Assembly: GCA_001574975.1 (NCBI GenBank) | Contig: KQ965737.1 | Location: forward strand, 412,288 to 476,287 | From: Gonapodya prolifera JEL478 | Lineage: Eukaryota > Monoblepharomycota > Monoblepharidomycetes > Monoblepharidales > Gonapodyaceae | Direction: 5' to 3' | DNA: 64,000 bases | Shown: positions 32,516 through 59,194 of the stretch, one piece after another | Numbering within the stretch: the first letter of the stretch is position 1 | How the letters are laid out: the number at the start of each line of letters is the position of its first letter | The notes under the pieces: generated by a model | Seen by the model: only the letters and a program-made list of their open reading frames with translations | The model's database searches: none | What the model was told of the DNA's origin: nothing | Position numbers and translations under genes: made by a program

Positions 32516-35500
32516 TCAGACCCACCCACCCTCGATCGCCTCCACCAGACTCTCGTACACGTACACAAACTGCTCCAGTGTCTGCACGACATACATTCTC
32601 TGCCCACGCAGCACGCGCAGGATGTTCACAACGGGGTCGTCCCCTGGAGGGTCGGCTGCCAAATCAAGCACCGCGAGGGATGCAGGGACATGCGAAAGCT
32701 CCTCTGCAAGCGAGGCCGCCGTGAGAGAGTCTTCAGCTGCCGAGGCAACGTCCAGGACGCGCCCGTTTTGTGCGCTCGGCGCCCCAGTGACAGGGTCGGC
32801 GGGCGACGACTGAGACAAAGGCCCATGCCACGTGAGGTCCACCGAAACGCCACACCGAGCGCGCCACTCCTTGGCGATTTTGATCATGGTGTCGACGACA
32901 GCGAACGTCCCTGTGCGTCCCACCCCTGCGGAGCAGTGAACGATCATGGGGCCCACGGACCGCAACGAGGTTTGGAAGTGGTTCGCGAGCTGGATGATTC
33001 GTAGCAGTGGGCCAGGTTTCTCTGGAGAAGCCGCGTGAGAGGTTGTTTGAGTGGTGCGTGGAGTTTTCAAAATGGATTTCCTAAAGAGATGAGACATACC
33101 TGGCACACCATGGTCGGGCCAGCCGACTAGCTGAATCTGCACCACATCCATACCCTCCACAGGCCCTTGGGCCCTCTGCCCCTCGCCTGCGGCCGCATGC
33201 ATGGTGAGCCGCCGGACGATGATGTCATCCCCGTATCGCTCCTCGCTCGTCAGGGTGATCCAAAGGGTATACTGCGAGAGGTTCAAGTTGGGGGACGTCG
33301 TGCCTGAGGGCGACGAGGCAGACGGTACGGTCACCGTGTATCGGCTTGTGTGGCCGGGCTTGGTGGGCCAGTATGTATGGCATTTGATGCGGCCTCGTTC
33401 CTCGAGCTATTCAAGGGGTAGGAATCAGAATGGTAGAAAATTAGGATGAACATACACTCACGTTGGTCAGCATCACGACAACTCTGCTTCCGTGTTCCCA
33501 GACCATCTGCCAAAAGTCACCCACGGTAGCCGGTGTGGGTCCCTGAGTGAATATATACGTCGTCGACGGGGGCATTCCTCGCAATGCTGGGTGAGCGAGT
33601 GTTGGAAACGAGCTGCTCATCTGTGGCGGGGGAATGTAGTATGGATAGCTCGTAAGGTAGCTTGTTACGGGTTTGCGCAACAGGACGATCAGCAAATACA
33701 AGTCCAACCCAATTTTGAAATTCAGCGCCCCACCTCGCGTTAATGTAATCACTCCACCCGCTTTGCCCACCGCTTTTGGTGTTTGTGACAATGAGGCCAA
33801 GTGGACCCGACACAGTGCCGAATTTCGTCGAAGCGCTGGAATCTTCTTTCCCACTTGGCATACGCTTGCGCCCTGCGTCGTTGGACTGCGCTTCCGGTCT
33901 GCCTCGTTCGCCATTCTTCCCAGCGTCTCCGTTAAACCAAGAAAGTGGCCGACTTGGCCTCCTCTTGCGCGCCGCCTCACTCCCTGGAAGAATGTACTCG
34001 GGTGCACTCCCAGGTGGCCAACCTCGGCCTGGTGCGCGACCAGTGCCCAACCTTACTCGCGCACACTCATATGGCGTCACATCAGGATATCGGTTTCGAA
34101 CACGATTCCGTGGCTCCGTGCCTGTCGCAGTCGACTGGGCATGGGTAGGGTCGCCAGCACGATCCTCGAATCGAGCTTCGGACTCGTGGTCTACGAACGC
34201 ATACGAGTAGCCCAAGTAGGCAGCGAGCGTTGCCGGAGAAGACGTGGATGGGGACATGGCATTGGCGGAGAGCGGAGAGTTAGGGGGCGGTGAGGTGCGT
34301 GGAATAAATGCCATGATGGGAGAAGACCGCGGGATTGCCAACATAGCCGAGAGAAAGGGGGGGAAGAATCGTGGTTGAAACCTTGCTGGGGACGTAGAAG
34401 AAGATCCCAGCGCGAAGATCGACGGGGAATCAGTGACAGCGCGCGCTGGAGTCGGACGAGGTGTGCTAGATGCAGATCCAGATGCCGAGCTTGATGGCGA
34501 AGGGATGGTTGAAGACAGAACAATTGTATCTGACTTGGTGCGCCCAAGGCCGGAGAGAAAATTGAAAATACGGCGTTGGGGAGTAACACGTGGAAGTGGT
34601 TGTGAGGAGCCAGGGGTACTGTGAGAAGCACTCGCAGGTTCCAAGTGGGCGGATTGCGAAAACACAGACGGCGACGAAGCGGTCGCCACGGCTATAGCGC
34701 TGGGTAAAATAGAAGGCGAGCTGCTCGCTACTACTTGTGTGCCAACGTCTGTACTTCGAGAGGCACTGTAGTCCACCGCTTGTGATATCCCTTTTCCACT
34801 TCGATCCAGATCCTGGAAGTCCGAGATTGATGGGTTCTGCTGTCCCAGAGAGTACATTGCTTCTCCCGGACCGTTGAACGAAGAAGCCGATTGTGCTGCC
34901 TGAGTCGGTAGAGGGACCCTGGGAGGTAATATTCGTGTGGAGCCTGGACTTGGCAGAGACCACGGGGCTGACGATGGTCCCGACCCTGATGGCTCTCTGG
35001 CTCTTCTCACTCGTAACTCTCCAGCTTTGCGCGACCAAGAAGATGAAAAAAGTGGGGACCGCGATGGAGACGGTGTCGCAGAGCCATTGGAGGCGTTGAG
35101 CGAAGTAGTGGAGCTCGTCGATGAGGCGAGGGTCGGGATCGGTAAATTAAGGGGCCCAGCAGCAGAGAGAACAATGTATTTAGCTCGAGCTTCCGCGTTG
35201 GAGCGCTTGGCCTGAGGATGCAATAATTGAGACATGTTACAAACGGGACATGTCGGAACTCCAGACCCTTCTGTCAAGGAATCCGATGCCGCAACCACAC
35301 ATGAAAATATTCCAGTCTCAGTTCCGAGAAGACTTCTTCGGGTGAGCAGATTCTTGATTGTGACTCACCAGGTGTGCAGCTGCACGGAAGGAGGTTCTGG
35401 CAGCCTTTTGAGATGCAGGCGAGAAAACTGGGGGGTAAAGCGCAGAATCTGGAAATCCCCAAGAGTGCGTGGACTTTGGCGCAGGTGAAGGGCCGGAGGA

Positions 35501-35959
35501 AGGTGGTTCCTCTTGACGTTCCTGCTCGCCACCACCCCACGTTCTCGACTTCAAGTGACTGGAGTGGCGTTCAGCGCCACCGTCGTCTGTCCTTTCACCT
35601 CCTTCCGCTAGATCGTCATCAGTTTCAGTTTCAGTTTCGTTTTCGCCAGCTATGTCTGCACCAGTGTCGTTTGGAGAGTTTGGATGTGAACTGGAATTCA
35701 GCCTGGGAAGCCTGGGAATTTCCAGAGTCGTAACAACTGGATTTAGTCCACGTGCAAAAATGTGAGCGGGCAGCGAGAGCGGCCGTTCCCCTGCCTTCCG
35801 CCTTCGGAGGATCGGCGAATCTGCCAAGCGAGCGTTCGACGCTCCTGCACTGTGAGGCTCTTGCTTTGTGGATGAAATGGGCGCGACATTCAAACTTCCG
35901 TCGCTGCTGCTTGTAATATGGAGCGTCCCGTTCGATTTACGGTCGCGCGCTGCGCTCAT
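32516..35959 (-). CDS. Protein tyrosine phosphatase, large, with Ser-rich N-terminal region
   Basis: Five exons, 1040 aa: 35386-35959, 33734-35270, 33462-33660, 33100-33406, 32516-33021; all phases agree. The first 600 or so residues are Ser/Pro/Thr-rich and likely disordered, with one CPVC motif near residue 195. The classical PTP domain is C-terminal: [10 protein letters not shown] (substrate-recognition loop), [24 protein letters not shown], the WPDHGVP acid loop, the P-loop [11 protein letters not shown] with catalytic Cys and Arg, and the Q-loop QTLEQF. It should therefore be active. About 90 residues are inserted between the P-loop and Q-loop helices, which is unusual. By analogy with fungal Pyp/Ptp enzymes it may dephosphorylate MAP kinases; this is inference. 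A start 60 bp upstream (36019) is possible. The junction of exons 1 and 2 was picked from phase. Confidence 0.85.
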
Positions 35960-36065
35960 GGTGGCATGCTCAATCGGGGAACACGGAAAAGGTTCACCCG
36001 CGGGCACGGCACACATCATCATGTACAAACGGCAATTGTTTTTCTTACTCATTCAGGAAGCAGCG

Positions 36066-39000
36066 TCAGAAGAAGTCCGCTAGAGTAGTTCCACCAGCCC
36101 TCGTCGGTGGAGCATAATCATCATCCCTCCGCCCTCTTCCACCTCTTCCCCTCCCTCTATGTCCGCTTCTACCACCACCTCCACCCCGTGCTCCTCTACC
36201 CCCATCCCCACCTCCTGTACTTCCTCTGCCGGCGCCCCCTCGAGCAGAACCACCTCTGCTACCTTTGTCACCTCTGCCACCTCGCCGACCTCGACCTCGA
36301 CCACGTCCACGCCTTCGGGCGAACAGTCGAGCAAACCTGCGAACCCAAAACATGAGCGCAACGTCGATAAAATAACCTCACTGGAGGTTATTCTTACGTC
36401 GTTTCCACCACCCCCGCGAGATCTTCTTCATCACATTGGATGCAAGATTCCCGCAAATCTTCTCGTTCCGCTTTCTTTCCGAAGGATAGGTCCAAGAGAC
36501 GGCAGCCGCAATCTTCACATGATGTTGGACACAGTGTGACATCTGTTTAAACTTTAGTGACACGGTATGTGCGAGGACACCTGGTACCAAACTCACTGTG
36601 AACGCTGTCGTCGAATGACATGACCAAGGTGCATTGATTGCAGCAGATCTGGAGTAGGCAGAGACGGTGGAGGCATTCGCAATGTTGTCCAATCCCGATA
36701 AACTCACCTTCCATCGAGGAGCGCTCGTGGCATCCAGAATCATAACGCCCTTACACCGCTCCTCAGGGCATGGACATACCCCGCATCGTACCGCCGAATG
36801 CTCGCAAGTCGTCACAGGACACTGGTTGCATCCCTTCAAAACAGATTCTCCAGACTCTTAGAATATCGGCCTCTGAACATTGACTACTCACCATCGGAGC
36901 TTCCACCAGACCCTCTTCCACTATCGGGGGTGTGGAGTAACATCGAGGGCAAAAGGGGAAACCTTTGCCCTTGGAGCCGGTTGTAAAGTAAACGAGCTCA
37001 AATCCATCTAAAGGGCACTTCAGCTCCCGGTAAAGCTGATTTACACATTATTTTAGTCGACAACCTTTTAGGAATTGTGCAAACTTGACTTACCTTGATC
37101 GTGCCCCCTTGCGGAACCGCATAAGTCTCATCGCAAGTGCGACAGTGCAAGCGTTGCGGTCTCAGTGCTAGATAATTAAGGTAGCGCCGGCATCTGCCGC
37201 ACTTAGATAACGGTCGTCCAGATGAAGCGAGCGGACTAAAGGTAGCCTCGAATAAGTTGTCCTGGAAACGTGTGAGAGCTTCAACTGAGAGGAAGAAGAG
37301 TTCACACCCGTACCATCTTGTCAATATTTTCGGAGAAAAAACGGAACTTGGCGCGAAACACATCGAGCTCTTCCTTGAGCACTTCGTCCGCTGGTAAAGC
37401 TCCACTCGCGACCAATGAAATACGCTTCTCCATCGCAGAGCGTAGCCTAAATGTGATTGATAGTGTGGAGTTGGATGAACCGCTTAATTAACTGAACTAA
37501 GGTAAGCGATGTAACTCACGTGGGTAAGCTAAGTTCGGGATCAATTTTTTCTGTCAGATAAGAATGGGTCGCACTTGGCATATTATATGATTGCCGTGAG
37601 TTGACACTACTCACGATACCCGTGGATGAGAACTATCCCCAAATTTGTCGGCACAAGTCGCCGCCGAGGCCCCTCAACCTGTTTGACAGATGTCGTTAGC
37701 TGTGCCCATGTCGTGAAATACAACCGACTCACAGTGACGTAGCGACGATTGACAATATTTTCAATGTGTAAGGCCATCGATGCGTCCGTGCCAATACCCT
37801 TTTCCCAAAAGTGTGAGTTTTTGGCTGCCTGGTGTCAGATATCGCTGCTCACCAGTCTTTCCATCTCGCCCACCATCTCACCCTCCGTCAAATACTCCGG
37901 CGGCTTTGTGACACCTTCTCGCACCACCACATCCTCCAGCGGGTACTCTTTATCGGGTTCTAGTCCAGGCGGAAGTTCATCGCCTCCTTTCACTTCCCCG
38001 GACTCATCTTCATTATCGTCGTCCTCGGGCTCATCATCATCTCTATCGGAAGGGCCGTGCCGCCACGCCCAGTGCGCGACCGATGCAAATCCGAGATAGA
38101 GGAGGCGACGGCCGGTTGTGGTAAATGTGGGTTCAGTACCTCCTGCCTTTGCGTTACCAAGTGAGAATGTCACGCTTGTCCGCAAGTACTTCAAGTTGGG
38201 CGATAAAGAAGCGATAAACGTCCGCTGGCTCAGGCGAAACAGAGCTTATCGAACCGTCATATAAATCGTGTTTGAAGCCACTCACAGTGATCATATCATA
38301 CAACCGCCAGTCGCTACCTGCCAGATCAAACTCTGTGGCACACCGCGTTGGCGTTCTAGACAAGACAGCCGCTGCTTTCAAGTAAATTTTCGACATAAAA
38401 TGCGAACGTGCAGTCATACATAGGTGGATGGTCTCCCTTGTCAACTCCCCCTTCCGGTCTCTTTACACCTTCTTTGAGGAGCTCTCGCACATAGCTACCC
38501 CACGCAGGGTGATCTTTATGCGGCAATAACGCTCCAGCAAGATCAAAGGTGGGTGGGTACGCTGTCGTCTCTGTGCGTGGATAGGCTTCACGCAAATGTT
38601 AAGGAGTCTTCCATAACATGAAAAAGACAGGCACACATACATATGAACCCCGATGTATAGAGACGTTCGGAAATGGACATCTCATGACAGGTATTGATTT
38701 TTTCGTTGTTCGTTGGACCTCAAGGTGTACTCACTGCTTCGGCCGGGGACATTCCAAGTCGTTTTGATGCCGCTGAGATTTACATCCGTTGGTTCCATTT
38801 TCCCTTTTTGTAAGAAAGACATTTTCCCTTGTCCCACCTTTCAGCATTTCCACCGTGTTCAATGCACGGGGTCTTTGCACGGTTCGTTTGTCGTCCGAGA
38901 GTCTAACGACTCTGTGAATGTGGTGCAACAGAATGCAGCAAATGCAAAAAAAGTCAAGAGTCTTTGAGAACTTACCTTGCTACACCCTTTCCCCTGAGTG

Positions 39001-40139
39001 TGTCTCTCATTGCATTTGCTTTGTTCCTTTCCCAAAACCTGCCTTTGTCACTGGGAACGGCCAAGGCACGGCCGCTTACGGAGATTCGAGCTCGCAGAGT
39101 CCAGAACGAACGAGGCTCAAAAGAAAGAATGGCGTCGCGGCGCGCAACGGCAAGCGCGAGTCTAGTAGGTGGTAGGTTGTGGTTGTGATTATATCGCCAA
39201 CAAGGGTTAACTCAATGGCTTACGTGGGAGTCTGACATGGTCCAAATGAAATGGTAGACGAGTCTAAGTTCCCATACTTGCCTTGAAAAAACCGAGTTTG
39301 GAAACGAGTGAATGAAACACCAATTTTGAGGTCGAGTTCCTGTCTAACATCGACCGCCTTCGCCTCCAAGTGAGCATCTCAATACATAGACTAGATACTA
39401 TGACTCACTTTGGCTTCGTTCTCGTTTGGTAGGCCCAGCTTTGCCATCGCAGACTTGATTTCGGTCGCGGTTATAGCGGAGAAGCGAGCTCGAAGGATGA
39501 GAGATCGCTTCGATCCACCTCCTGGAGGTGCTCGCATGTTCGGTTGAGCACACTTCATTACCTCGTAGCAACTGGCATTCATTGGGTGAACTATCGAGGG
39601 ACACATTCCCGTTGTAAATAAGGACCCACATGTTCTCTCCTTCACGATCGCAATCGAGCCACAAGACGAGATAATTAGCACCCTTTGCCTCCACTTGCAA
39701 ATGCTTTGCGACATGCTGCTTCGGATTCGACTCATTCTTCTCGGTGGGAGCGTCATATAATTCGATGGGGGGAACAGCATCCCAGTTGTTGTAGGCCGAT
39801 GGAAAATCGATACTAAAAACGTGTCCCAGAACACTTGTAGGGACCATGCGGCACAGGAATGTAATTATGTGTCGAAGTTGAACATCCAAATGAAACGACG
39901 CACCTGGTCATACGAAAAGTAGCCTGCTGGTCATGCCACATTCCGTTCCACTCCCAAACGTTGGTAGCGATCCCTATGCCGTGCATATTATCGTTTCATT
40001 GCGGGTTAAGCGAGGGTTATCGATGACTAGGAATGCCCTCCCGCTCACCACGACGCATCTGGATCCCTCCACCAGCCAGGATCTTGGCAATAGATTCCGC
40101 AAGTGACGGTTTCTCCGCCACCATCAGCACAAGAACCAT
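36066..40139 (-). CDS. TOP3B: DNA/RNA topoisomerase III beta with C-terminal RGG box
   Basis: Twenty-two exons, 947 aa: 40049-40139, 39904-39973, 39630-39833, 39409-39571, 39224-39363, 38976-39161, 38838-38911, 38735-38772, 38641-38680, 38420-38585, 38286-38355, 37853-38224, 37733-37828, 37615-37678, 37520-37550, 37314-37446, 37094-37261, 36892-37035, 36708-36833, 36597-36648, 36398-36542, 36066-36336. Every junction keeps phase. The TOPRIM domain opens with [13 protein letters not shown] and contains the acidic [11 protein letters not shown] motif. The catalytic Tyr is in GFISYPRTETT (residue about 337, the same place as Tyr336 in human TOP3B). GDHPPITPT and KGIGTDAS follow. Several four-Cys zinc fingers (CGRC..CRTC, CPRC, CNQCP, CPCPE, CCNQC, CEDCGC) lead to a long Arg-Gly-Gly tail. 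TOP3B, with its TDRD3 partner, relaxes DNA R-loops and acts on RNA through the RGG box. Beta-type domain order and fingers separate it from yeast-type TOP3 (alpha). 5' half duplicated at 44.7 kb. Confidence 0.92.
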
Positions 40140-40560
40140 TTTCCCCTTCGTACGACAGGGAAACTAATGGACTGGCGATCGATTGCTTTGGTCGGCCGAA
40201 TTGTACTTCCTAAAACACTTCTCGGAATGCAGGCGGGAAATTCTGAAGCGCCTACTTCCAAGACTCCCAGTCACTACTGGAATCCGCAACGGCCAGAGAC
40301 GTCTCGCTGGTGGTCAATGTTCTCAAAGTATCCCTCGATTTGAACGTTCGGTGCGAGTCGCGCGACTCTAAGAAATGAATTGAATGAGTCGCGCATCAAA
40401 ACCTTGATTCTTTGGCTCACTGCTGTTCAATCGAGGGTGGACAGTGATGTTCATGAGAACACGGCTCTGCCTGTTTCTTGGGGGGGTGATGAAGGATGCC
40501 CTTCAACATCACGCTTTCAACACGCCGAAGCACTGGAAGCACTTTTTGCAGTGACTTGCT
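38731..40560. repeat. Tandem-duplicated segment, copy 1 (5' half of TOP3B plus ILK 5' fragment)
   Basis: This segment matches 44737-46620 in the same orientation with an offset near 5.9-6.0 kb. Identity is visible over long stretches, for example at 39950 against 45874 and 40107 against 46025. The left edge falls at the end of TOP3B exon 8; the right edge falls inside the ILK exon 2/intron 2 region. The two copies have diverged by substitutions and small indels. Confidence 0.85.
40160..40560 (+). pseudogene. Truncated 5' fragment of the ILK gene
   Basis: Bases here align with the start of the complete ILK gene (46.1-46.6 kb): the start region near 40228, the first ankyrin-like exon, the intron with its GT-AG edges and part of exon 2. 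Roughly 90 bp of exon 1 are missing relative to the complete gene, the frame is interrupted, and the homology stops before the second ankyrin repeat. The remaining ankyrin and kinase exons do not follow. It is the inner, truncated copy created by the tandem duplication and has no plausible product. It keeps the head-to-head position to TOP3B that the complete ILK gene has to the TOP3B pseudogene. Confidence 0.8.
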
Positions 40561-44736: not shown

Positions 44737-46055
44737 TCACTGGCCACTGCTTCAGCGTGGGACATTCCCAGTCGTTTCGTTACCGCTGAAATGAAGAGTT
44801 TCACCAGTTGAGTCAACTTTTCTCCCGTAAAAAAGTCATAGTTCGTCGTTCCACCTTTCAGCTTTGGCACCGCTTCCAACGCACGTGGCCTTTGCACGGT
44901 TCTTTTGCTGTCCGACAATCAAACGACACTGTAATGTGGTGCAACGTGATACCACAGATGCAATACAAAGTCAAGGTCTTTATGACCTAACCTCCTTTCC
45001 CCGGTGTGTGTTTCTCATGGCATGTGCTTTGTTCCTCGTGACGGCCAAGGCGCAGCTGCTTACGGAGATTCGGACGCGCAGAGTCCAGACGAACGATGCT
45101 CAAAGAAAGAATGGCATCGCTGCGAGCACCAGCAGCGCAAGTCCCGTACATTATGGTTGAGAGTATGTTGTCAACAAGGGGTAGATCGATGGCTTACGTG
45201 GGAGTCTGACATGGTCCAAAAGAAATCGTAGAAGAGTCCAAGTTCCCATATTTGCCTTGAAAGACAATTGAGTTTTGAAACGAGTCTATGAAACACCAAT
45301 TTCGAGGTCGAGTTCGTTTTGTCTAACATCCACCTTCCACTCCAAGTTAGCATCTACATATATAAGCTAAATGCTACGACTCACTCTGGCTGAATTGATT
45401 CTGGCGCGGCTATGGCGTCGAAGTGAGCTCGAACGATGACAACGCTTCGGTGCACCTCCTGGAGGTGTTTGCATGTTTGGTTGCGCACACTTCATTACCT
45501 CCTCGTCTCGAGAGGAAATCCCCTGCTTGAAAGAAGCACCCATATGTTCTCTCCATACGATCGCGAATCCAGCCACAAGACGAGATAGCTGGCACCTTTG
45601 GCCTCCACTTGCAAGTACTTTGCGACATGCTACTTTGGATTCAACTCGTTCTTCCTTGTGGGAGCGCCGTATAATTCGATGGGGGGAACAGCATCCCAGT
45701 TATTGTAGGCCGACCGAAAGCAAATACTAGAGACGCTATTTAGAACGCTTGTAGGAAGATGCGGTGAAAAAATATCATTGAATTGGAGGTGGTATGTAAC
45801 AACCCCATCAAACGACACACCTGGCCGTAACGAAGAGTAGCTTGTTGGCAATGCCACATTCCGCTCCACTCCCAAACGTTGGTAGCGATCCCTATGCTGT
45901 TTATGTTATCGTTTCATTGCGGGTTGAGTGAGGGTTATAAACCATGAGAATGCATTGCAGCTCACCACGCCGCATCTGAACACCCCACCAGTCAGAATCT
46001 CGGCAATAGATTCGGCAAGTGTCGGTTTCTCCGCCACCATCAGCACAAGAACCAG
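44737..46055 (-). pseudogene. TOP3B pseudogene (N-terminal half only)
   Basis: A decayed second copy of TOP3B exons 1-8 on the same strand as the complete gene. Recognisable pieces are [17 protein letters not shown] at the N-terminus, the [18 protein letters not shown] segment of exon 3, and KRLGMSHAEA of exon 8. It is broken in several ways: the start codon ATG reads CTG, exon 1 has a one-base loss near its end, and a Gln codon after the exon 3 segment NELNPK is a stop. The copy ends at the exon 8 border, so the catalytic Tyr exon, the zinc fingers and the RGG tail are absent. Divergence from the complete gene is moderate, suggesting the duplication is not very recent. Confidence 0.85.
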
Positions 46056-46620
46056 TTTACCCTTCGAACGTGGGGGAAACGGAATGTCTTGAAGCAGATC
46101 TATTGCTTTGGTCACTATCGCTTGAACTCTCTCTTTTCGAAGCTCTGAAACAATTCTCCCAATGAAGGCGGACAATTCTGGAGCTCCTACTGTTTTAGTT
46201 GAGCGCCTGTATGCGGCCGCACCCATTTCGCCAATCGCGGGTCCACTCATGCGGGATGAGGACGGCGCGACATCGCATTACAACTTTCAAGACTCCCAGG
46301 CACTGCTGGAAGCCGCAAAGGCGGGAGACGTCTCACTGGTGGTCGATATTCTCAAAGAAACACTGGATGTAAACGTTCGGTGCGAGTCGCGCGATTGTGC
46401 GAAAATGAATGGAATGAATGAACCATCCAAAAACCACGATTCTCTCGCGCACTGCTATTCAAATCGACGCTGTACAGTGATGTTCATGAAAACACGGCTC
46501 TACATGTGGCTTGCAGAGCTGGTGGGTGGTCGGTGCTTAAAGGATTGCTTCAAAATGCCCCCGTCCGACCGGTGGTCGCACTCTAACAGGATACGCCGAA
46601 GTCCTGGAAGCCCTTCTTGA
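44737..46620. repeat. Tandem-duplicated segment, copy 2 (TOP3B pseudogene plus ILK 5' region)
   Basis: Direct-orientation partner of 38731-40560. Here the ILK side continues into the complete ILK gene, whereas the TOP3B side is cut off. Together the copies show the classical outcome of a tandem duplication whose unit began inside one gene and ended inside its divergent neighbour. Confidence 0.85.
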
Positions 46621-48570
46621 ACGACGACCAGATCTGGAAGCCCGAAATATTGCAGGGGATACTCCCCTTATCGTCGCGACTCAAGAACTCCGCCCGGATT
46701 TGGTTTCCATGGTGGGTGATTTGCTTGCGAACGTGAGTGTCCACAATTCTCAAAGAAGCTCTTGTCACAAACGAAAGCTCTTGGAGGCAGGTGCAAGAGG
46801 TTTGTGTGGTAGAGGGGACGATTTCACAATCGTTTAAGCACTCGCTATGCGGGCTACTTACTCCTTCTCTTGTACCTCGTTGCAGCAAACTCCGCCAACG
46901 ATCATGGGAATACACCTCTTCACTACGCTTGTTTCCGGCATCGAGCTGACTTGGTGCAGATCCTTGTAAAAGAAGGTCGTGCCAAACTTAACATTGCGAA
47001 CAAATACGGGCGGACTCCTCTCAATATTGCCGGACCTACCTGGGAAAAGGAGTTGAAGAAAAGTCAGGGGCTTTTCTTTTTAGCATCATCGTTGCCTTCC
47101 TCATCAGAGTTTCATTTCTACTCCAGCGTATCTTGGCGATGAGGACGTGCAGGTTGCAGCTGTGAAGGCACAAGGTGCGTCAAATCAGAAGCTCTGCTCT
47201 CACTATCTACTAAACCATCGTTCCCAGCACGCAGTTTTGAAGAAGCATCCGACCAAGCTCGTGCACGATTCCTGGCGCAGAGTGGGCATACTCACACTTT
47301 TCTATGTTCTCAGACTGTTCATAACCTATTCGGCGCGATAGACACTGCCACCCTGCAAACCCCCTCCTCGACAATCACGTACCCTGCACCAGACCCAGCA
47401 GCACCAGACGTTCTTCCGGGCCTCCTCTCTCTGACCCGCCATGCGGAAACACGTCGGGCGCGATGGAATGGATGGGAGGTTGCTGTAAAACGTGTGGGAA
47501 TATGGGAGGAGGTACCCACTAACACCAGCGCAAAGGAAGCTGCAAGAGTGGAAGAAGTGAACTTAAAAAAGAGGAAGCAACTAGAAAGTGTGTGCAAAGA
47601 TGAGGTCGAGAGTCTGAGGTGAGCCTATACATAAATCTGTTGCTTGCACACCCATCTGATGTGCTGTCTCATAAAAGGAAACTGTGGCATGGGAACCTTC
47701 TTCCTGTCATTGGATTCACCAACGAGCCGCCTCACAACGTTTCCATCATGACCGAATATTCTGCTTTGGGGTCACTTCATGCACACCTCTCTAATCCAGA
47801 AGTTGTGATTGACGAACAAGCAGCATACCAGTTGGCCCTTGGAGCCGCACGAGGGGTGGCTTACCTTCACTCACAAGTTCCTCCCGTTCCCCACGGTAAT
47901 CTCAAATCCCGCAACATGCTCGTGTATAAAGGGAACCAAGTGAAGTTGGTGGAGTACGGCTTCGCAGTTAGCCCATTCGCAACCAGTCCGAACGCTGCGA
48001 ATCTTGGCTCACATGCGGGAAAGTACGTCACCGACCCCACGTCTGTACCACCTGAAGTCCTCAAGGGTAACTTTGAGCCCTGCTACGACGCACGATGGGC
48101 GGACAGCTACGCATTTGGAATGGTCTTACATCAGGTGGCTACCCGAGCACCGACTTGGCCAGAAAATTGGGGACCTATGACCATTGGCCTCAAGGTGGGT
48201 AGCTGGCCTGTCTAAGAACCGCTCTTGTTCCATCACAGACGATTTGCAGGTGGTTCTGGAGAACACTCGACCCGAGATACCCGAATACGTACCCGAGCCC
48301 CTAGCTGATCTCATTCGCCGATGTTGGGACTCTGAACCCCGCCAACGTCCAGACTTTCGGGATATTGTGAGTGTCCTGGAGGAGCTCCTTCGTGATGCCG
48401 ACCGCCGCAGTGGAGTTGTCTCCCCCGCGAGCCCAGCGAAACCAACTGTCATTGTACAGCAAAAACAAGCGCCAAAAGTCGCAGTTGTGGTGGAGTCCAA
48501 CGAATTTAAATCTAGAAAGGGTTCCATTGGGCGAGTGTTTTCGCCAGTGGCAACCACCAATGAACAGTAG
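46162..48570 (+). CDS. ILK: Integrin-linked kinase (ILK), ankyrin repeats plus pseudokinase
   Basis: Nine exons, 621 aa: 46162-46379, 46478-46521, 46590-46732, 46778-46799, 46886-47062, 47127-47174, 47243-47618, 47678-48194, 48250-48570; all phases agree. N-terminal ankyrin repeats include NTALHVACRAG, GDTPLIVATQ and, most tellingly, HGNTPLHYACF followed by NKYGRTPLN, nearly the same as HGNVPLHYACF and NKYGEMPVD of animal ILK. The kinase-like domain (about 285-600) keeps the VAVK lysine (about 300) but lacks a glycine loop, has PHGNLKSRN where an active kinase has HRDxKxxN, and EYG in place of DFG. IGLKVVLENTRPEIP near the end matches IGMKVALEGLRPTIP of ILK. It is thus a pseudokinase scaffold, as in animals, where it joins PINCH and parvin at adhesions. 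Longer than human ILK (452 aa) because of a linker before the kinase-like domain and a Ser/Lys-rich tail. An internal Met at 46249 is an alternative start. Confidence 0.87.
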
Positions 48571-48609: not shown

Positions 48610-49973
48610 TCAATGTCGAACTACGTAGTTGGGCATTCCTTTCACCTCAAACCCCATATCCTGTGCGAGCTTCCCCAATGCCTCACTTTCAATCAAGTGC
48701 TTATAAGGTACCGTAGGAAATGTCAATCCTTTTAAGCTTCATCAGCTATAAGCAGTCAACGTACGGTTGAGCAACTCGGTTGAGCAACTCACCTTCTCGA
48801 TGACAGTCCCCTCTCACGAGCAAGACTGTCGCCCCGACACCATCCAAACCAATCATCTCTGTGCGATTGCCTTTTGGGTTGTAGAAAGTGCCCAACGGTC
48901 TGCACGTAGGTACACAAGCTCGTCGCGACAGACCAGTAATGCAAAGACGTGCTGGACGAACCTTCGACCGGTCCTCACGCCGAGCCATTCATACCCGTCA
49001 ACTAACACCTCATCGTCATCCATTTCCTTCATAATCCTTCGTGTTTCTTCTGTCTCAACAAAACTATTAAGGTCATAAGGCTGGAGCCTGCCACCACCAC
49101 TATCAAACATGCACGAGGGCGCAAGAACGTCGATATTTTGAGACATCAGATCTTCCAAGAGGGATTGGGGAAACGAGGAGACATCAACGTCGAGCCAAAG
49201 GACCCAGTCATGGTCTAACAAGGTGGAGAAGAGAAGTGTGTTGCGGCTTGCTGCGAGCAAAGCTGCAGTCTAATCAGATTTATTTTTCGTAACGAACCAA
49301 CGTCATTCACTCACCTCTCCGACCACCCTGTATTTCATACTGGTGCCTTCCCTCTTCACTGATAAATATTCCAAAATCCTTTTGCAGTATGGTTATCCGA
49401 CGGTACTCTCGAAAGTGGGTCACATCTGTTGGTGCGGATGCTTCCTCGGTTTCTTCAGAGTGAAATTGAGATGTTTTCATCCACAGATACTCCATGGTAC
49501 CATCAAGGGAGTCAGATACGAGGAAAGCTGCGGGAAAAGCACCAGATAGCAGGTTGAATCCATGAAAATATCCCAAGTCCACACTACGTACCGATGGATA
49601 TCAATCTTTTATTGTACGTCATACCCATAACTCTTTCAAAGTAGCCGTCCAAGTGCCTCCGCGCGTTCTTGAGAGGCGTGAGAATCAAAACTGTACCGTT
49701 CTGCACGAATCCTGTCTGTGTCACCATTTCCTGGAGTCCCATACGTGATGCCGACAGTGGTGGGTTCTCATCTGTTTCAAGGATCTGCAGAATATCGTTA
49801 GATGGGCTTTGTATCCCTTGATGATTGAGTCCGCCGGTCCTTTGAGGTGGGTCAAGCGACCATGACGGGAAGATTCTCGTTGACAGTTCCCAGATAAAAC
49901 CACACCACACAGCAAGAGCTACGATGCGCCGAAGGCTATAGAGAGTTGGGCGAGGGTGAGTGCAGAAGCTCAT
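48610..49973 (-). CDS. Anp1/Mnn9/Van1-family (GT62) mannosyltransferase
   Basis: Five exons, 353 aa: 49592-49973, 49315-49527, 48979-49262, 48793-48856, 48610-48728. A type II Golgi membrane protein: a basic N-terminus, one hydrophobic segment (IVALAVWCGFIW, about residues 15-35), then the lumenal catalytic domain. Family segments are VLILTPLKNA, FLVSDSLDGT, the WLDVDV (DxD) metal site, DLNSF..ET, LDGVGATVLLV and HREG..FP. The last exon ends in GMPNYVVRH. In yeast these proteins build the mannan backbone in M-Pol complexes. The intron at 48857-48978 was chosen because it alone preserves the frame; it shortens a loop that is longer in yeast proteins, so that junction is tentative. The gene ends 39 bp from the convergent ILK stop, so their 3' ends must overlap in the transcripts. 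Confidence 0.85.
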
Positions 49974-50137
49974 GATTCGGTCATCACACGTCATCGTCGT
50001 GAAATTAATCAAACGAAGTAATCCAACGAAGAAATATAACGAAGAAATATCCAACGAAGAAAATAATTAATCCAACGAAGAAATAAAAAGAACTAAATTT
50101 TACAAGATGCTCCGATTTCACTTCAACAACAATTAAT

Positions 50138-51709
50138 CTACGCATTGCCTACACCTCTCGCCGCCTCAACCAAGCACTCGTAAATGTAACCAAACTGTTC
50201 CGGCGTTTGAACCATCAACACTCTTTGTGTCCTTAAATGCTTCACGAGGGCCGCCACCGGATCTTCCTCCAGGTTTGTGGAACCCATCGCACGAACCAGA
50301 GGTTTCGTGGAACCGGGTTGCGCCCCCCACTCACGCATGGCTTTGATAAGCACGTCTACGACGATATACGTCCCGGTGCGACCAACCCCAGCAGAACAGT
50401 GGATAAGAGGTGGTCCTGGGGAGGGCGCAAATGGGGGACTGTTGGCAAGTCGGACAAGGTTGAGAAGTGAGGAAGGTCGCCCTTTAAGGATGAGGGAGAT
50501 TGCAAATGAAGGAAAGCCGGCGAGAAAAGCTGAGCACCTATTCATACTTACTTGGCACACCATGATCCGGCCATCCAACAAAATGGAGCTGCCACACAGT
50601 CATCTCATCCCGCCATGTTTCCCCTCTCTCGCGCTCCCCTTCCCCCACGAGATTTATCTTTCGAATGACGGTCTCGCCGCCAGAATCCATTCTCTTCTCT
50701 GCGAGTGCCACCTCCAAGGTCCACTCCTTTTGGCCTGCGCTGGCAGGGACATGATATCTTTCGCGGTCACCGACTTGGGACGGCCAGAACTGTGCGCACT
50801 TTGGGATTCCTCGCTCTTCTAAGCAGGCAAGGGACACGATGAGGGTTGTGCGGTGTTCAAAAATTGACCGCCAGTGGTCCCGGATGGTGTTGGGGATGGG
50901 GCCCTGTGAAGCGATGTAGGCGATTGGGGGAGGAATAACTGAGGAAACCGTAGCCTGTGTCGTAGACGGTGGGAGAGAAACGGTGTAGAGGGGATGGGAA
51001 GTAATGTAGCTGTGCAAATACATTAGGAAGTGTGAAGCTTTAGTCCCGTACTCGATGACCGCACACTTCCATGCCACACGATCAAGTCGAGATAAAAGAA
51101 AGTTGGAAGAGCTAACCTGGCATTGAAATAATCGCAGAACTCGTTCTCTTGGTCGTTGCACACAGAGCCATCTTTCTGACCATTACGGTAGGAAGAGGCA
51201 TCATTGCGCCCAATCGATCGAGGCTGAGACAATGACGCATCACCCTTGACGTTTTGTGTCCGTGTCGACGACGATTTCCCCGCAGACTCTTCTCCGTCAC
51301 GACGTTCTGTGGAACCGGCTTTGGAAGCCCCAACCGCACCACCACTACGACGCGACGGGTCCACGAAACCAAGCCGTACTCGATTGTGATTGTACGGTAC
51401 TACGTTTGTGTACCTATTCCGTTCCACTGATTGTGTCGCAAGGGCGTCGAGGCATGACCAAGCATTCCCGGGCAGTCCCATCATCACCGCCTTGTGTTTT
51501 TCACTGGATTCAGCATCAATGAGCAAAAATGTCTGCCACAGATGCTCCCTCTTCGTCAGCGGCTGCTGGAGCAGCGCAGTTTGCCCACGCCGGGCTTGTG
51601 GTTGTGAACTGCTGTTCGCTGGGGGCGGTCGAGTACGTGGAAGCGCCTCGATGGCGGCGAGAAACGGCGGCAATGACGCTGCCGATGCTGCGGCCCCTTG
51701 CGAGGACAT
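50138..51709 (-). CDS. Protein tyrosine phosphatase (second, compact)
   Basis: Three exons, 464 aa: 51117-51709, 50552-51009, 50138-50481; frames agree. A classical PTP domain fills most of the protein after a short Ala/Pro-rich N-terminus. Motifs: NRYTNVVPYNHNRVRL (substrate loop), CDYFNASYI, YIASQGPIPNTIRDHW, the WPDHGVP acid loop, [11 protein letters not shown] with catalytic Cys and Arg, and QTPEQF. An active enzyme is expected. It shares intron positions with the larger PTP at 32.5-36 kb (after NA-Arg/Ser and after HGVP), which suggests a common ancestral PTP gene, although the N-terminal regions are unrelated. Confidence 0.87.
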
Positions 51710-51932: not shown

Positions 51933-52553
51933 TCCCCATCTACTCTACAGAGCTTCAAAAGCAATTCTTACAGCCAATGGTCGCAGACTTCCCTCACCTT
52001 CACTGACGTGTTGTTGGGTGAAATGAATGTTTAAGAATCAAACGAACATGTCATTGAACAAACGAACAAGAAGGGGATGTCTCTGATGGTGTATTATGCT
52101 GCGTTCGATCCCAAGCCAAGGTCACCGTCGGTCGAGTACAGAGTCCCCACCTTGCAGCATCGAAGACACTTCTATACAGTTCACTGGCGTTTCATCAACT
52201 CTCCACCCGGCGCGCGTACCAGCCCACGACGATTCCGATTGCTATTCCTCGCCCTAGTATCATCCGTCCTCGCACCAGTCGTCTTCGTAGAGCTCGACCA
52301 GCGCGCGCGGTGTGGATTGACCGACCTGACCAACCCACACTCTGAGTAGGCGCTCAAATGGGGACGTGCCATTCACACCAATGTGTCCCTTCCGATAGGG
52401 AAGGACGCGCTGACACCGTTGGGATGCTGATTGAGAAATGGGGTGAATTGAGACTGTCTTATCACACTGTTGCGAGGAGATTTACATTCCGTACTTGTGC
52501 AAAACAGATGGCAAATTTGAATGCTAGCGATGGTTGGTGTATGCAGATGCGAG
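51933..52553. repeat. Dispersed direct repeat, copy A
   Basis: About 620 bp that match 63196-63828 in the same orientation with many substitutions and small indels. The best-conserved block runs from the words atgtctctgatggtgtat (about 52076) to gggaaggacgcgct (about 52412). No frame stays open in both copies, so the shared sequence is more likely non-coding or a relic. No terminal repeats or tails were recognised. The rest of the interval 51710-52722 contains no gene. Confidence 0.75.
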
Positions 52554-52722
52554 TTGGCTGATCTCATGTCACTTGGACGTTTATTTTGGGGGCAGAATCG
52601 AAAAAGTGTGCAGATTTGTGGTAGCAGTGAGAGGGAATTGCTCAGAAAGCTAACGGCAAGCGTCTTTAAAGGCAGCAGAGCGCAGTGATGTGATCTTGAT
52701 CACCTCAAGACTTGGAGCTTCT

Positions 52723-53913
52723 TCACCTCCTTCCGCAGCAGCCGAAAAGCACTCCACACCCCACCCCAAGCGACACAAATCCAAAAAGCGCAGCCAGCAC
52801 GGCGCCCACCGTCCACCCCACCGCCGGTCCCAAATTCTCACTGACGGCCTTGACGCACGCCTGCTTGATGGGCCCATTATCCCACGCATTATAATCCGTC
52901 GCATAATTATGGCACATTGGAATCAGCGACGGGTACGGCGTGCTCCACACCGTGTACGTATTTGTCTCGCAGCTGGTGGACCCGTCGCTCTTCTTATAGC
53001 ACGAGCGCACCTCCCGCATCAGGCTGTGACTCACCCCGAGCCACTCCCCGCACTGCCCGATGGTCCACTTGGCAACCTCGTACGTGCTCGTGTCCGCGCC
53101 GAGATACTGCCGCCCGAACGCGAGGCTGTCCACGTCGGAGCACACAGCAGGGTCGACTTGGATGCACCGCGCGCGCCAGGTGGTGTTGGTCCGGCATGCG
53201 CTGCGCAGGATGAGTGAGCTGGCAGTGGAGGCGCTTTGGAGCGGGAGGAAGGACGAAAAGCGGACCCCAGCTTGCCACCCGAACACGCCCGCGCAGGCGA
53301 GGAGGGAGAGCGTGATGAAGCAGAATGAGAGCTTGACTTTTTGGTCGTTGGTGAGCTTGGCGCACTGGAATCCGCGGGCGCGTTTGCGTTCGTAGTAGGG
53401 GACAAATGGCTGTGGCTGCGCGGCAGGAGTCGGGGTCCATGCGGTGGCGATCGGCTGGGGGCTGGAGATCTGGTACTCTGGTTTGGTAGACGCCGGTGGG
53501 CCAAATAACCCGTCTGGCACCGAAGGTGCTGCGGTACCGACCAACCCAGCGTTCGACTTGGTCACGCCGTCTTCGTCATCGCTGATGCTGATATCGCCGT
53601 CGTCAAACAGGTCGTCGTTATCTTTTGATGGCGGAAGTGCGGGCGGGGCGGGTGAAGGGTGGGGATCGGTGTGCTGGTGAGGGGAGGGGGGAGTGTAGGC
53701 TGGCGGCGGGGACGATCCGGTGGTGTGTGTTCCAGCAAGCCAGGAGGGAATGATGTTTTCACCGTCGTTGTCATCGGGGGGCGCTGAGGGGGAAGCGTCG
53801 AATATCGGCGGCGGCGTTGAAAGTTGGATGGAAGTGGGGACGTAGTTTGGAAGCCCAGGTAGCGGCGTGAAAGTGGACGCTGCGATGGTGGGAGGGTTTG
53901 GAAAGGCGGACAT
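52723..53913 (-). CDS. Two-pass membrane protein with Cys-rich outer loop and Pro-rich cytosolic region
   Basis: Single exon, 396 aa. Residues 1-190 are Pro/Ser/Asp-rich and likely disordered, with an acidic DDGDISISDDEDG patch. Transmembrane helix 1 is about 195-220 (KLSFCFITLSLLACAGVFGW) and helix 2 about 360-390 (GWTVGAVLAALFGFVSLGVG). Between them lie about 140 residues with at least ten cysteines and two potential N-glycosylation sites, suggesting a disulphide-rich extracellular or lumenal domain. The protein ends right after helix 2 with GCGVLFGCCGRR; the two Cys at the membrane border could be palmitoylated. I do not recognise the family. The region before helix 1 (YYERKRARGF) is basic, giving the cytosolic N-terminus by the positive-inside rule. 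Confidence 0.75.
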   Translation of the reverse strand: MSAFPNPPTIAASTFTPLPGLPNYVPTSIQLSTPPPIFDASPSAPPDDNDGENIIPSWLAGTHTTGSSPPPAYTPPSPHQHTDPHPSPAPPALPPSKDNDDLFDDGDISISDDEDGVTKSNAGLVGTAAPSVPDGLFGPPASTKPEYQISSPQPIATAWTPTPAAQPQPFVPYYERKRARGFQCAKLTNDQKVKLSFCFITLSLLACAGVFGWQAGVRFSSFLPLQSASTASSLILRSACRTNTTWRARCIQVDPAVCSDVDSLAFGRQYLGADTSTYEVAKWTIGQCGEWLGVSHSLMREVRSCYKKSDGSTSCETNTYTVWSTPYPSLIPMCHNYATDYNAWDNGPIKQACVKAVSENLGPAVGWTVGAVLAALFGFVSLGVGCGVLFGCCGRR

Positions 53914-54304
53914 TGTGGATGCGGGGTGGATTTGGATTTGGATGTGTGACTGTCAATGTGACGTTGCGGGTGCAATTCAGATGTCCTTGCGAAGATTCGC
54001 ACACTTCGCACGCACCCTTTCCGAGTGGTGAAATTGGGGTGTAGACTCTTTAGTCTTTCGCACGATTAGCTGTCCAACTTGAAGCGAACGCGAAGGCGAA
54101 GAAATCTTGAGTCACATTGACGAGAGAGGGTTGTAGTCCTGTAGTCTTTCTCCCCTTCAGCGCGACTGGCTTTATAATTACGAGCGATTCAGCGATTACG
54201 TTTCTGAATTCCACCTTTGCATTTGGGGTATGAGCTGTGGACGGATAAGGCCACAGCGCTCCCACCAACTTTTCTCCTTTCTGCCGCATCGCCCATCGCG
54301 CACA

Positions 54305-56808
54305 ATGGCCAAGCGAAAACCCGACACCGACGACAAAAAAGAAGACGCGAAGGCCGCGCACACCCCGAGCGACACGGATGACGTGGACAGTGGGGACGGG
54401 AGCGACGTGGAGGATGGGAGTGATGTGGACGTGAAGGAGGAAGACGGCGACGACGCGGAATCCCCAGACGAAGACACCCGGACCCCCCTGTTCCGCGTCG
54501 TCGTGGGCAGCTACGAGCGGTTCGTGTACGGGATCAACGTGTACGGCGCGCACGAGGGCGGCGACGGGGATGTGAAGGAGGAGAAGACGGACACCGACGC
54601 TGACGCCGACGCGGACGGGGAACCCCACAAAGACGCCACCACCCCACCGGAGCTCCCTCTCACCCTATCCGCGCTATTCGTGCACCCCTCGCACGTCTCC
54701 TCGATCAAATGCCTTGCCTCCACCTCCACGAGCCACCTACTCGCCTCAGGGTCGGTCGACGAGTCCATCCGCCTCTACAACCTGCGCACGTTGCGTGAGC
54801 TCGGCTCGCTGTTCCACCACCAGGGCACGGTATCCCGCCTTGCGTTTGTCGGGACGCGGTACATGGTCTCGGCGGGTGAAGATGGGAAGGTGTGTGTCTG
54901 GAGGTCAAAGGATTGGGAGCTCGTCAAGGAGCTCAAGGGGCATAAGGGGAAAGTGCTTGATATGGCCGTGCATCCGTCAGGAAGGGTTGCGTTGACCGTG
55001 GGCGAGGATAAGACGCTGAGGTAAGTTCGATTGCAGTGGTGGGGGAGAATGAACAAGGTGTGCAGAATGCGTTTCGCAGAGTGAGAGTGTGTGGGGGGAG
55101 CACAAACGTGGAGCCCAATTGTTTCGGAGAGAGTTCGATACGAGTTGGCAAGGTATGCGAATGAGTTTTCGCAGAGTCCGTTGGAGGAGCACAAACGTGG
55201 ATCACAAGTGTTTAGAGGAGAGTTCGATAAGAGTGGGCAAGGTGTGCGGAATGCAGTTTGCAGAGTGCATGGAAGGGACACCACAAACTCGGATCCAAAC
55301 TAGTTCCGAAAAGTTGCACCACCAAACGATCATCCATTCTCGCTTTCCCCATCCCCTTCCACCCCCGACCCCCACCCCCACCCCCACCGCTCACACACTG
55401 CCACCACAGATGCTGGAACCTCACCAACGCCTCCCTCGCACTCACCGCCAAACTCCAGCGCCCGCCCTCCCCACCCACCACCGGGGGCGGGTACGTACCC
55501 CCACAACAACCCCTCCCGGACCGCATTCTCTTCACCCCCGACGGTGACCACTACATGCTTCTATGGCCTACTTGTATCCTCGTGTGCAAGACGACCGCCG
55601 CGGGGGGAGCGGACGGGGGCGATAAGGATGTGGTGATCCACCCGCCCAAATTGGGAAAGTTCCTTTCCGTGTGCGCGTTCCCCGTTTCGGGCAAAGGCGG
55701 GACCGGAACCGAGACGGTCCTTGCCGTGGGGTGCGAAGACGCCTCGGTGGCGCTGTACTCCCTGGACGGCACGCCTCTGCACGCCGACAGATGGGGTCTC
55801 ACGGCTGCCGCGTGCACCGCGCGGGTCAAGTGCGTCGCGGCGCGCGGAGCCTACCTCGTGGCCGCGACGAGTAAAGGCACCGTCGTGGTCTGGGATGCGA
55901 AGGAGGCCGTCAAGGCCGTGCGTGACGGGCGCGCGCGGGATGTGAAACCCCTGGGCGTGTTTGAGGCCGCGTGTAGAGTCACGTGTTTGGAGGTTGTTGG
56001 CGTGCCGGGGGTGAAGGAAGTTGGGAGGGAGGAGAGTCGGGTGAAGGAGGAGGGGAAGGAGGGGAAGGCGAAGGCGGAGGTGAAGAAGGAGGCGAGAGAG
56101 AGGAAGACGAAGGAGAATGAACGGGGGGAGAAAGTCAAGGCGGGGGTTAAGCGGAAGGCGGGCGAGGAGGAAGATGAGGAGGAGGATGGCGGTATGGATG
56201 ATGTTGATGATGTTGATACTGGGTCGGAGGAGGACGGGGAGGACGGGGAGAATGAGGAGGATGGCGAGGATGGCGAGAATGGCGAGGAGGACAGTGAAGA
56301 TGAGACTGAAGAGGACAGTGACGACAATGAGAGGCCGCGGGGGAAGCGGGACGCGCGGGGGCGAGGTCGAGGCCGGGGCGGGCGGGGACGAGGCGGACCT
56401 GGCGGCGGCGAAGGGGGCGGCAGGGGCGTTAGCAGGGGCAGGGGCAGGGCCGACTCGGGCTCATTCAAGCGCAAGGCGGAGCGCGACGATGGGCGTGGGC
56501 CGGGCGCACACAAGCGGGCCAAGCTGTCGCACGATGGGGAAAGGGGTCGCGGTCGAGGCGGCCGCGGGGGCGGGAGTGGCGGCGATGGTGGGGATAGGAG
56601 AGGCAGGCGCGGTGGTGGGGGAGGCTTTGGACGGGGACGGGGTGGTAGAGACAATGGTGGACAAGGCGGACGAGGGGGTGGCAAGTTTGGCGGGCGCGGT
56701 GGTGGGAGTCGAGGTGGCTTTGGAGGTGGGGGACGAGGCGGGCAAAGGGGCAGAGGCGGAGGTGGGGCAAGAGGTGGTGGAGGTGGACGAGGGCGGGGAA
56801 GGCGATGA
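54305..56808 (+). CDS. MAK11: MAK11/PAK1IP1-like WD40 ribosome-biogenesis protein with long RGG tail
   Basis: Two exons, 704 aa: 54305-55020 and 55410-56808. After an acidic N-terminus, WD40 blades start with VVVGSYERFVYGI, the hallmark of MAK11/PAK1IP1, followed by VSSIKCLAST, LLASGSVDESIRLYNL, MVSAGEDGKVCVWR and LKGHKGKVLDMAVHPSGR. The second exon adds further blades and then an unusually long C-terminal extension: a Lys/Glu-rich stretch (about 450-560) and about 130 residues of Arg-Gly-Gly repeats. Yeast Mak11 is needed for 60S subunit maturation and recruits Rlp24. The RGG extension is not part of the yeast or human proteins I know and suggests RNA binding or nucleolar phase behaviour. 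The intron (389 bp) is long and contains a minisatellite. The C-terminal codons are strongly G-rich. Confidence 0.82.
55055..55260. repeat. Minisatellite in MAK11 intron (about 89-bp period)
   Basis: The words agcacaaacgtgga, gagttcgata and ggcaaggt recur with a constant 89-bp offset (for example 55099/55188, 55131/55220, 55147/55236), and a third, partial unit lies just upstream near 55055. About 2.3 units in total, inside the only intron of the gene. Confidence 0.8.
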
Positions 56809-57018
56809 ACGGTATTTGGAAGATATGAGATGTATACCAAGTGGATAGATGTACTGTGATATTTTGGTAGAATGCATAGAAGTCACTTCTCGGAGCGCTG
56901 ACTGAGTGTGCGCACACACTGCATTCCGTCACTATCACGCTGTCGAAACAATACAAACAAAAAGTGTGCACGGCAAAATTCTTTCCATTGCAGCTACATA
57001 CTACGCACATCGCACAAT

Positions 57019-58802
57019 ATGCAACAGCAGCAAAACGGCGGAAAGACAGACCACTGTGCGTTCCTGTCTTTCCTAACTTCACCCACCGCGTTTCTCTCCC
57101 TACTCGACTTACCTCTTCTCTCCCCTCGCAGACCCAGGACCAGGCGAGTTTTCCAAGCAGACGCAACTCGACAAGAACCCAGGCCCGGGTATTCAGCGTG
57201 AGATGGAACCCAAACCAGTGAGTCCTTCCCTTGCCGAGTTGGCGTTACGTGCTGAGTCAGAGTTTCTCCGCTACACAGATCTCCACAGACTTGCCGACCC
57301 GCGATGGGTTGCAGGCGTACAAGGCTGCAAAAAAACTGGACGGAAAGGTTGCGGTGAGTTTCTTGTGTTGGTGCGGAGGGTGTGAATCCAACTGTAACGA
57401 AAGGCATGTCAGTGCGGGAGGAGGTGGGAACGTGGACGCTTCCCTGATGATTTCAATACAATACAACTTGCTGACTTGCTGGACTGGGTCTGAGACGTGC
57501 TAGTTGTTACCCAGAGGTCCTCCTGGATCCACCTGCTGCATTCGACTGTGGTCTATGCCGAGCACCTTTATCCTCACGTCTCTCTTTCCACCTCGCTCAC
57601 CGTACTACAGCTCATCACCGGCGGTGACTCCGGCATCGGTCGCGCAGTCGCTGTTCTCTTCGCAAAGGAGTCGTGCAACCTGGTTGCCATCGCGTACCTC
57701 CCTGAAGAAGACAAGGACGCTCAGGAGACGAAGGCGCTTGTCGAGCGAGAGGGGTGTGCATGTTTGCTTGTGGTGCGTACGGTCGTCGGATGAGGGTTGC
57801 GGTCGTCGTGGTGAACGGACGTTCAACAAACGCACATTTTGAGGGAGTGCTGCAACAAATGCTCACAGATCCACTCCACACACAGCCAACCGACCTCTCC
57901 AAAGGTGAAGGCGAATGTGCCCGTGTCATCCGCGCCGTCCTTGACCACCCGGCGGCCGGTGGGAAGATCAACGTGCTTGTCAGCAACGCCGCGACACAGG
58001 TGAGTCTGTTGGCACTCTGCTCTTCCCCTCCTCCTCCTGTGCTTATTTACTCTTGCTCTGGATTTTCTGTGACACCACGTGCCCCTTGACGCCCCGCCAG
58101 ACCATGCTGGACAAGATCGAAGACATATCGGAGAAGCAGCTCGAGCGCACGTTCAAGACAAACGTGTACCCAATGTTCTACTTCGCCAAGCACGCCGTGC
58201 CGCACATGAGCGCTGTGAGTTGGTGGGGTGTGTGTGGAAAGATCAACGGTTCGATGTAGGAAGTGGCACTTCCTTCTCATTTCTCACCTCTACCACGTAC
58301 CGTTCAGGGCGATTCCATCCTCAACACGACCTCAGTGACGGCGTATAAGGGAAGCCCGCGCCTCGTCGACTACTCCGCGACAAAGGGCGCTATCGTCAGC
58401 TTCACCAGGAGTCTCGCCAAGCAGCTTGCGCCGAAGGGGATCAGGTGTAACGCCGTCGCGCCGGGGCCTATTTGGTATGTGATTGAGTGGGAGGAGATAC
58501 TGGGGGTTTGGCGGAGAGCAGGTGGTGGCGAAGTGAAGAAGATACGAGATGTGGATGAAAAGTGCACATTCCTCGCCTGCAAACACCCCGCCTCGTTTCC
58601 TCGTAGGACACCCCTCCAGCCCGTCTCGCGCCCGCCCGACGGCATCGAGCAGTGGACCGGCGAGGGCTCATCCCCACCACTTGGAAGGCTTGGTCAGCCC
58701 GCCGAGGTTGCGACGAGCTACGTGTTCTTGGCGTCGGCGGACGGGTCGTACTTTGCGGGTCAGGTGTTCCACCCGAATGGCGGGGATGTTGTCAATGGGT
58801 GA
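57019..58802 (+). CDS. Short-chain dehydrogenase/reductase, GSP39/YhdF-like
   Basis: Eight exons, 316 aa: 57019-57055, 57132-57217, 57279-57353, 57611-57772, 57886-57999, 58101-58214, 58308-58474, 58607-58802. A classical SDR with an N-terminal extension containing GIQREMEPKP, as in bacterial general-stress SDRs. NAD(P) site LITGGDSGIG, the VLVSNAAT motif, catalytic Ser in TTSVTAY, YSATK catalytic Tyr/Lys, and CNAVAPGPIWTPLQP before the substrate loop. The end FHPNGGDVVNG replaces the usual DGG. The substrate cannot be predicted. The family is widespread in bacteria and fungi, often stress-induced. Exon 4/5 junction was set by phase. A decayed copy of the last exon lies 3.5 kb downstream. Confidence 0.87.
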
Positions 58803-58937
58803 GGATTGGCAGTGCGCGGGCAAGGGAGAGAAAAAATGAATTTTGTGAGAATTGGGGGAGAATAAATCGTGGAGTTTTGCCAAGTCCTCCTTTGTGTCGG
58901 AGAGCGGCAAAGGCTGGTTGAGCAGTGCCAGGACTGA

Positions 58938-59102
58938 ACAAGGTCGCGCCGCGATTTTGCGCATTCAAATTCATTAAATAATAAGGTGTACGTTTACCGA
59001 GTCAGGCGGATGAAGCTCGTTGAGTAGGATTGGACAAAATCGCATCGCGATTTTGGGTATTCCAATTCAATACAATATAAGTACACGTCTAGCGAGTCAT
59101 TC
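58938..59102. repeat. Short tandem duplication upstream of the dCache gene
   Basis: A unit of about 65 bp (58940 onward: cgcgattttg, cattcaa, aataataag, gtacg, gagtca) is repeated from 59038 with about 75-80 percent identity in the same order. It lies within the 392 bp between the SDR stop and the dCache start and could be part of that promoter. Confidence 0.65.
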
Positions 59103-59194
59103 AACAATAATGTGGTGCGTGTTGTACGGGTCTCCATGAAAAGGCAGCAGCCACTCATCAGGTTACCTGATCACCAAGGCGGTCTCATCTATCC

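Follow-up and report, generated by a model that had tools for sequence, protein, structure and literature searches.

The question raised by this locus is whether the gene at 46162-48570 of the 64,000-nucleotide stretch of Gonapodya prolifera JEL478 DNA analyzed here (hereafter the window) encodes a fungal orthologue of integrin-linked kinase (ILK), as was proposed in a preliminary description of the same DNA. That description regarded the ILK-PINCH-parvin module as lost in fungi, which was too broad a statement, since all three proteins have been reported in Neocallimastigomycota (PMC5042518). According to that report, Orpinomyces and other Neocallimastigomycota encode ILK, parvin and PINCH but have neither integrin nor FAK nor Src, the focal-adhesion set is retained to differing extents among basal fungi, and Dikarya are described as being without homologues; a role for the scaffolding proteins at basal bodies and hyphal tips was offered there as speculation. 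A fungal ILK is therefore already in print, and current views of how fungi evolved are left unchanged by the present gene.

The gene is real, and its reading frame over the predicted exons is intact. It begins with an ATG at 46162 on the plus strand and ends with a stop codon whose last nucleotide is 48570, and both the coordinates and the number of exons agree with what had been described. The nine predicted exons are separated by eight GT...AG introns of 53-98 nt and encode 619 amino acids with a single terminal stop. In the predicted product, referred to here as the ILK-like protein, an N-terminal tail of approximately 40 residues precedes five ankyrin repeats, and a linker of approximately 90 residues connects these to a TKL-type kinase domain, which is followed by a C-terminal tail. 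Exon 1 (46162..46379) contains the start codon, the N-terminal tail and ankyrin repeat 1, and was aligned to ILK; exon 2 (46478..46521) holds the first half of repeat 2; exon 3 (46590..46711) covers repeats 2-3; and exon 4 (46778..46799) is a micro-exon of 22 nt in repeat 3 that was picked as restoring the repeat register. Exon 5 (46886..47062), with an uncertain 3' border, encodes repeats 4-5 (HGNTPLHYACF...NKYG), and exon 6 (47127..47174), which lies in the linker and is without homology support, is the least certain exon. Exon 7 (47228..47618), with an uncertain 5' border, encodes the rest of the linker and the kinase N-lobe, exon 8 (47678..48194) the kinase domain as far as alphaG, and exon 9 (48250..48570) the end of the kinase domain, the C-terminal tail and the stop codon. 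The introns were picked by hand and eye to restore the ankyrin register, with the borders of exons 5-7 being the least certain, and one of the four donor/acceptor combinations tried in that region keeps the whole frame open. Because the introns had been chosen in this way, human ILK was also searched by tblastn against the raw window, independently of any gene model. Matches of 59.7 bits (47676-48200, in the region of exon 8) and of 48.9 and 47.0 bits (46888-47034, within exon 5) were obtained, together with a fourth of 23.9 bits; the top match in 30 triplet-shuffled windows reached 26.6 bits, and thus three of the four matches stand out. In the Pfam search, the ILK-like protein matched PK_Tyr_Ser-Thr at 98.6 bits (cut-off, 23.1) as well as ankyrin families.

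A segment of approximately 1.5 kb that includes the 5' end of this gene occurs twice in the window, about 6 kb apart. In the unit at 45.0-48.6 kb, the intact ILK-like gene faces, in head-to-head orientation, the decayed remnant of a TOP3B 5' end (45031..46060, minus strand), in which the frame is broken by a stop, the TOPRIM acids are altered and part of the sequence reads DSRSYGEN. The sister unit at 36.7-40.5 kb has the reverse condition: its TOP3B gene (36700..40139, minus strand) is near-complete, whereas the ILK-like gene opposite, also head to head, is reduced to a decayed 5' remnant (40227..40491, plus strand), which has lost 94 nt from exon 1 and whose similarity stops near the border of exon 2 and intron 2. 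The TOP3B gene of the sister unit, matched in separate pieces within residues 1-747 of the 826 of human TOP3B, scored 225 bits with TOP3B against 98 with TOP3A among PDB entries, and 74.2 bits with Zn_ribbon_TOP3B. Identity between the two units was 822/1023 over the TOP3B part, 54/82 between the two starts, 81/97 in the main part of exon 1, 74/94 in intron 1, 35/44 in exon 2, 27/62 in intron 2 and 45/122 in exon 3. The simplest account of this arrangement, newly described here, is a tandem duplication of a head-to-head TOP3B/ILK-like pair, followed by the loss of a different partner from each unit. The codons of the intact and decayed exon 1 differ by 6 synonymous and 12 nonsynonymous changes, counts that are uninformative on selection because one of the two copies is dead.

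The decayed sister of the gene's own 5' end, only 6 kb away, might suggest that the ILK-like gene is itself a pseudogene or a contaminating fragment. This reading is extremely unlikely, given that a single open frame crosses the nine predicted exons, that its decayed twin is found in the same window, and that the surrounding genes are of fungal type. A Ste11-like gene (1848-6503, minus strand) carries SAM_2, a Ras_bdg_2 match below threshold (20.1 bits; cut-off, 27) and Pkinase pieces in Ste11-like order, and a reading frame at 48856-50066 matched Anp1. Ste11 of SAM/Ras-binding/kinase make-up and Anp1 are both fungal families, and the fungal setting claimed previously is supported to that extent. 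Furthermore, a reading frame at 6821-7333 matched BRCC36_C, and BRCC36 together with TOP3B suggests an early-diverging fungus. FCH (F-BAR), C2 and RasGAP matches follow in that order, in separate reading frames, at 10386-13673 on the plus strand and possibly belong to one gene. Adjoining Anp1, protein-tyrosine phosphatase matches were found in two reading frames at 50141-51182 (minus strand).

The motifs noted previously in the protein were all present, namely HGNTPLHYACF, NKYG, the missing glycine loop, HGN for HRD, EYG for DFG and IGLKV..TRPEIP. Within the kinase domain, the glycine loop is absent from the N-lobe encoded by exon 7, and in exon 8 the Asp of HRD is replaced by Asn (HGN) and the Asp of DFG by Glu (EYG); EYG was equated with DFG as a motif, at a place where the automatic alignment to ILK has gaps. 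Together, these three features make a pseudokinase the most likely state of the ILK-like protein, and a C-terminal TKL pseudokinase domain without the HRD Asp was scored as present on the PK_Tyr_Ser-Thr match and the HGN at HRD. Retention of the Lys in VAVK, the Glu in alphaC and the Asn in LKSRN would suit an active but atypical kinase that dispenses with the canonical HRD Asp and glycine loop; against the three losses just described, such an activity is very improbable. Since the glycine loop is absent, ATP binding is predicted to be probably weak or none, unlike that of animal ILK. Human ILK has other residues at the HRD and DFG positions, and the two proteins are thus alike in the place of their inactivating changes and not in the letters.

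With respect to identity, several lines of evidence point to ILK. The ILK-like protein aligned with human ILK end to end and collinearly, from the repeats to the kinase, with 157 bits in BLAST and 150 bits in phmmer at 31% identity, and five N-terminal ankyrin repeats in the ILK register were present, a result for which the introns had been chosen to fit the repeats but in which repeats 4-5 are independent of the model. As one stretch, the ankyrin block scored 78 bits with human ILK, and the fly and worm ILKs gave 82 and 73 bits, compared with 73 bits for the best ankyrin stretch among the alignments listed and 51 for the best stretch of RIPK4. In a kinase tree of 15 rows, the ILK-like protein joined the three ILKs with a support of 81/85, and in a tree of 17 rows, to which the pseudokinases MLKL and KSR had been added, it was again joined to ILK (77/87); neither node was starred. 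Moreover, when a residue was called ILK-typical if at least two of the three ILKs agreed on it and at most 10% of other kinases had it, the ILK-like protein held 15 of 99 such residues, compared with 3-10 of 101-105 for 13 other kinases scored under a leave-one-out scheme. It ranked first at four of the six thresholds and shared first place at the remaining two (3/28, with RIPK2 and SRC at 3/31; and 7/57, with MLKL at 7/64), although the thresholds were not chosen beforehand. Four of the 15 shared residues lie in the alphaG segment GLKVVLE, which spans M402 and K403 of animal ILK.

These positions are of interest because mutants of animal ILK at M402/K403 are reported to lose parvin binding, and mutants at H99, F109 and W110 to lose PINCH binding (PMC3871693). 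The ILK-like protein has L and K at the parvin-binding positions and H, F and R at the PINCH-binding positions. In comparison with the animal ILK structures (PDB 3KMU, 3F6Q and 2KBX), it is alike in its collinear order of five ankyrin repeats followed by a TKL pseudokinase, in retaining H99, F109 and K403, and in having a similar alphaG segment. It differs in its identity of 31%, in the residues at HRD and DFG, in the absence of a glycine loop, in its longer N-terminal tail, linker (by approximately 30 residues) and C-terminal tail, and in having R for W110 and L for M402. Thus, the earlier statement that the features match animal ILK closely was overstated, given both this identity and the different residues at the dead motifs.

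The scores of the kinase part alone tell a different story. Against PDB, this part scored 107 bits with CTR1 and 96 with ZAK/MLTK, the top matches, and 84 with human ILK. Human ILK in turn scored 137 bits with CTR1, 104 with ZAK, 100 with TNNI3K, 91 with TAK1, 90 with DLK, 87 with MLK and 84 with the window kinase, and a profile of the three ILKs placed the window kinase fourth among 14 non-ILK rows (CTR1, 160; ZAK, 124; TNNI3K, 124; window, 106). On these scores ILK is not the closest relation of the kinase domain, a comparison that served as a working test and not as a strict definition, with CTR1 and ZAK scoring above ILK and the profile favoring CTR1, ZAK and TNNI3K; for this reason the protein is filed as ILK-like rather than as an established ILK. 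CTR1 and ZAK are themselves unlike the ILK-like protein in that the printed alignments show them with HRD and DFG (one CTR1 chain, 3p86, has HRN) and in that their alphaG segment differs. With the whole protein as the query, ILK was absent among the best 60 of 1598 PDB rows, and among the rows listed the higher total scores belonged to ankyrins, designed repeats and KIDINS220; with the ankyrin block as the query, ILK was absent among the best 60 of 385 rows, and the proteins with higher totals were the same, joined by MIB1 at 107 bits. AU tests did not reject clades of the window row with CTR1 (p = 0.45), MLKL (p = 0.455), ZAK (p = 0.413) and TNNI3K (p = 0.533, with a likelihood slightly above that of the free tree), and both the window row and the ILK branch are long, with the result that long-branch attraction may contribute to the grouping.

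TNNI3K and RIPK4 are proteins that combine ankyrin repeats with a TKL kinase, the ankyrins of RIPK4 lying behind the kinase. The ILK-like protein resembles both in this combination, its clade with TNNI3K being unrejected in the AU test, and it is unlike RIPK4 in the order of the domains and in the 51 bits of the best single stretch. A serious, although less probable, alternative is that the gene encodes an ankyrin TKL kinase of fungi whose activity was lost independently and which is no orthologue of ILK; it would then act as a scaffold elsewhere, perhaps in a MAPK pathway. The higher kinase scores of CTR1 and ZAK, the placements left standing by the AU tests, dead motifs unlike those of ILK and the unspecific likeness of the ankyrins would all suit such a protein, whereas the collinear five-repeat match, the surplus of ILK-typical residues with its cluster in alphaG and the grouping with ILK in both trees argue against it. 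On balance, the ILK-like protein is probably a divergent fungal ILK orthologue, this being its likeliest identity as judged from sequence comparison. Of the original proposal, kinship with ILK stood as the best single reading, on the strength of the collinear match, the tree, the ILK-typical residues and the ankyrin stretch; orthology was no more than probable, with CTR1 and ZAK scoring higher in the kinase and the AU tests leaving four other placements. The tree that had been called for as a check likewise returned the grouping with ILK (81/85 and 77/87) and left the placements with CTR1, MLKL, ZAK and TNNI3K unrejected.

The ankyrin motif, which had been offered as a mark of ILK, proved not to be diagnostic. 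In a search of genome contigs with the alignment A1, 62 matches were obtained and 7 were confirmed, all in records named as bacteria and all within the ankyrin range; TPLHYACF occurred in six of these seven bacterial loci and the exact HGNTPLHYACF in one. The motif was consequently ruled out as an ILK diagnostic because bacterial ankyrin proteins have it too. Two Spiroplasma loci had 44% identity in the best segment, within residues 69-184. Another search of genome contigs gave 43 matches, none of which was confirmed. In viral contigs, no pattern match was found with the kinase part, and none of 40 matches obtained with alignment A1 was confirmed.

Should the protein be an ILK, it would be a divergent member from fungi, and it would reveal what remains of the adhesion scaffold once integrins are absent: portions of the binding surfaces, but not the nucleotide site. 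It would thereby help to distinguish the ancestral function of ILK from the one it has in animals. The ILK of anaerobic gut fungi (PMC5042518) would be its counterpart as a fungal ILK that occurs without integrins. The ILK-PINCH-parvin complex is reported to bundle F-actin through motifs of PINCH and parvin, with Mg-ATP on ILK tuning the bundling (PMC6203859). In the most likely scheme, built on the domain anatomy read from the sequence, the ankyrin block of the ILK-like protein would bind a LIM domain of PINCH, a parvin CH domain would sit on the alphaG face of its pseudokinase, and the putative complex would tie or cross-link actin filaments at a membrane site or basal body in an integrin-free manner. 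A tentative and rather doubtful proposal is that the fungal ILK lost the nucleotide-binding loop, kept part of its parvin- and PINCH-facing surfaces and might act as an ATP-independent, integrin-free scaffold, having been kept through a duplication whose other copy kept TOP3B.

Nothing was found over the 64-kb window with Rfam at gathering scores or with ARAGORN. Two further direct repeats, of 83 and 71 nt and 85-86% identical, lie at 52244-52443 and 63472-63688, approximately 11.2 kb apart. Furthermore, as noted for 16001-24000, 28001-36000 and 52001-60000, blocks with a G+C content of 55-61% alternate along the window with blocks of 48-52%.
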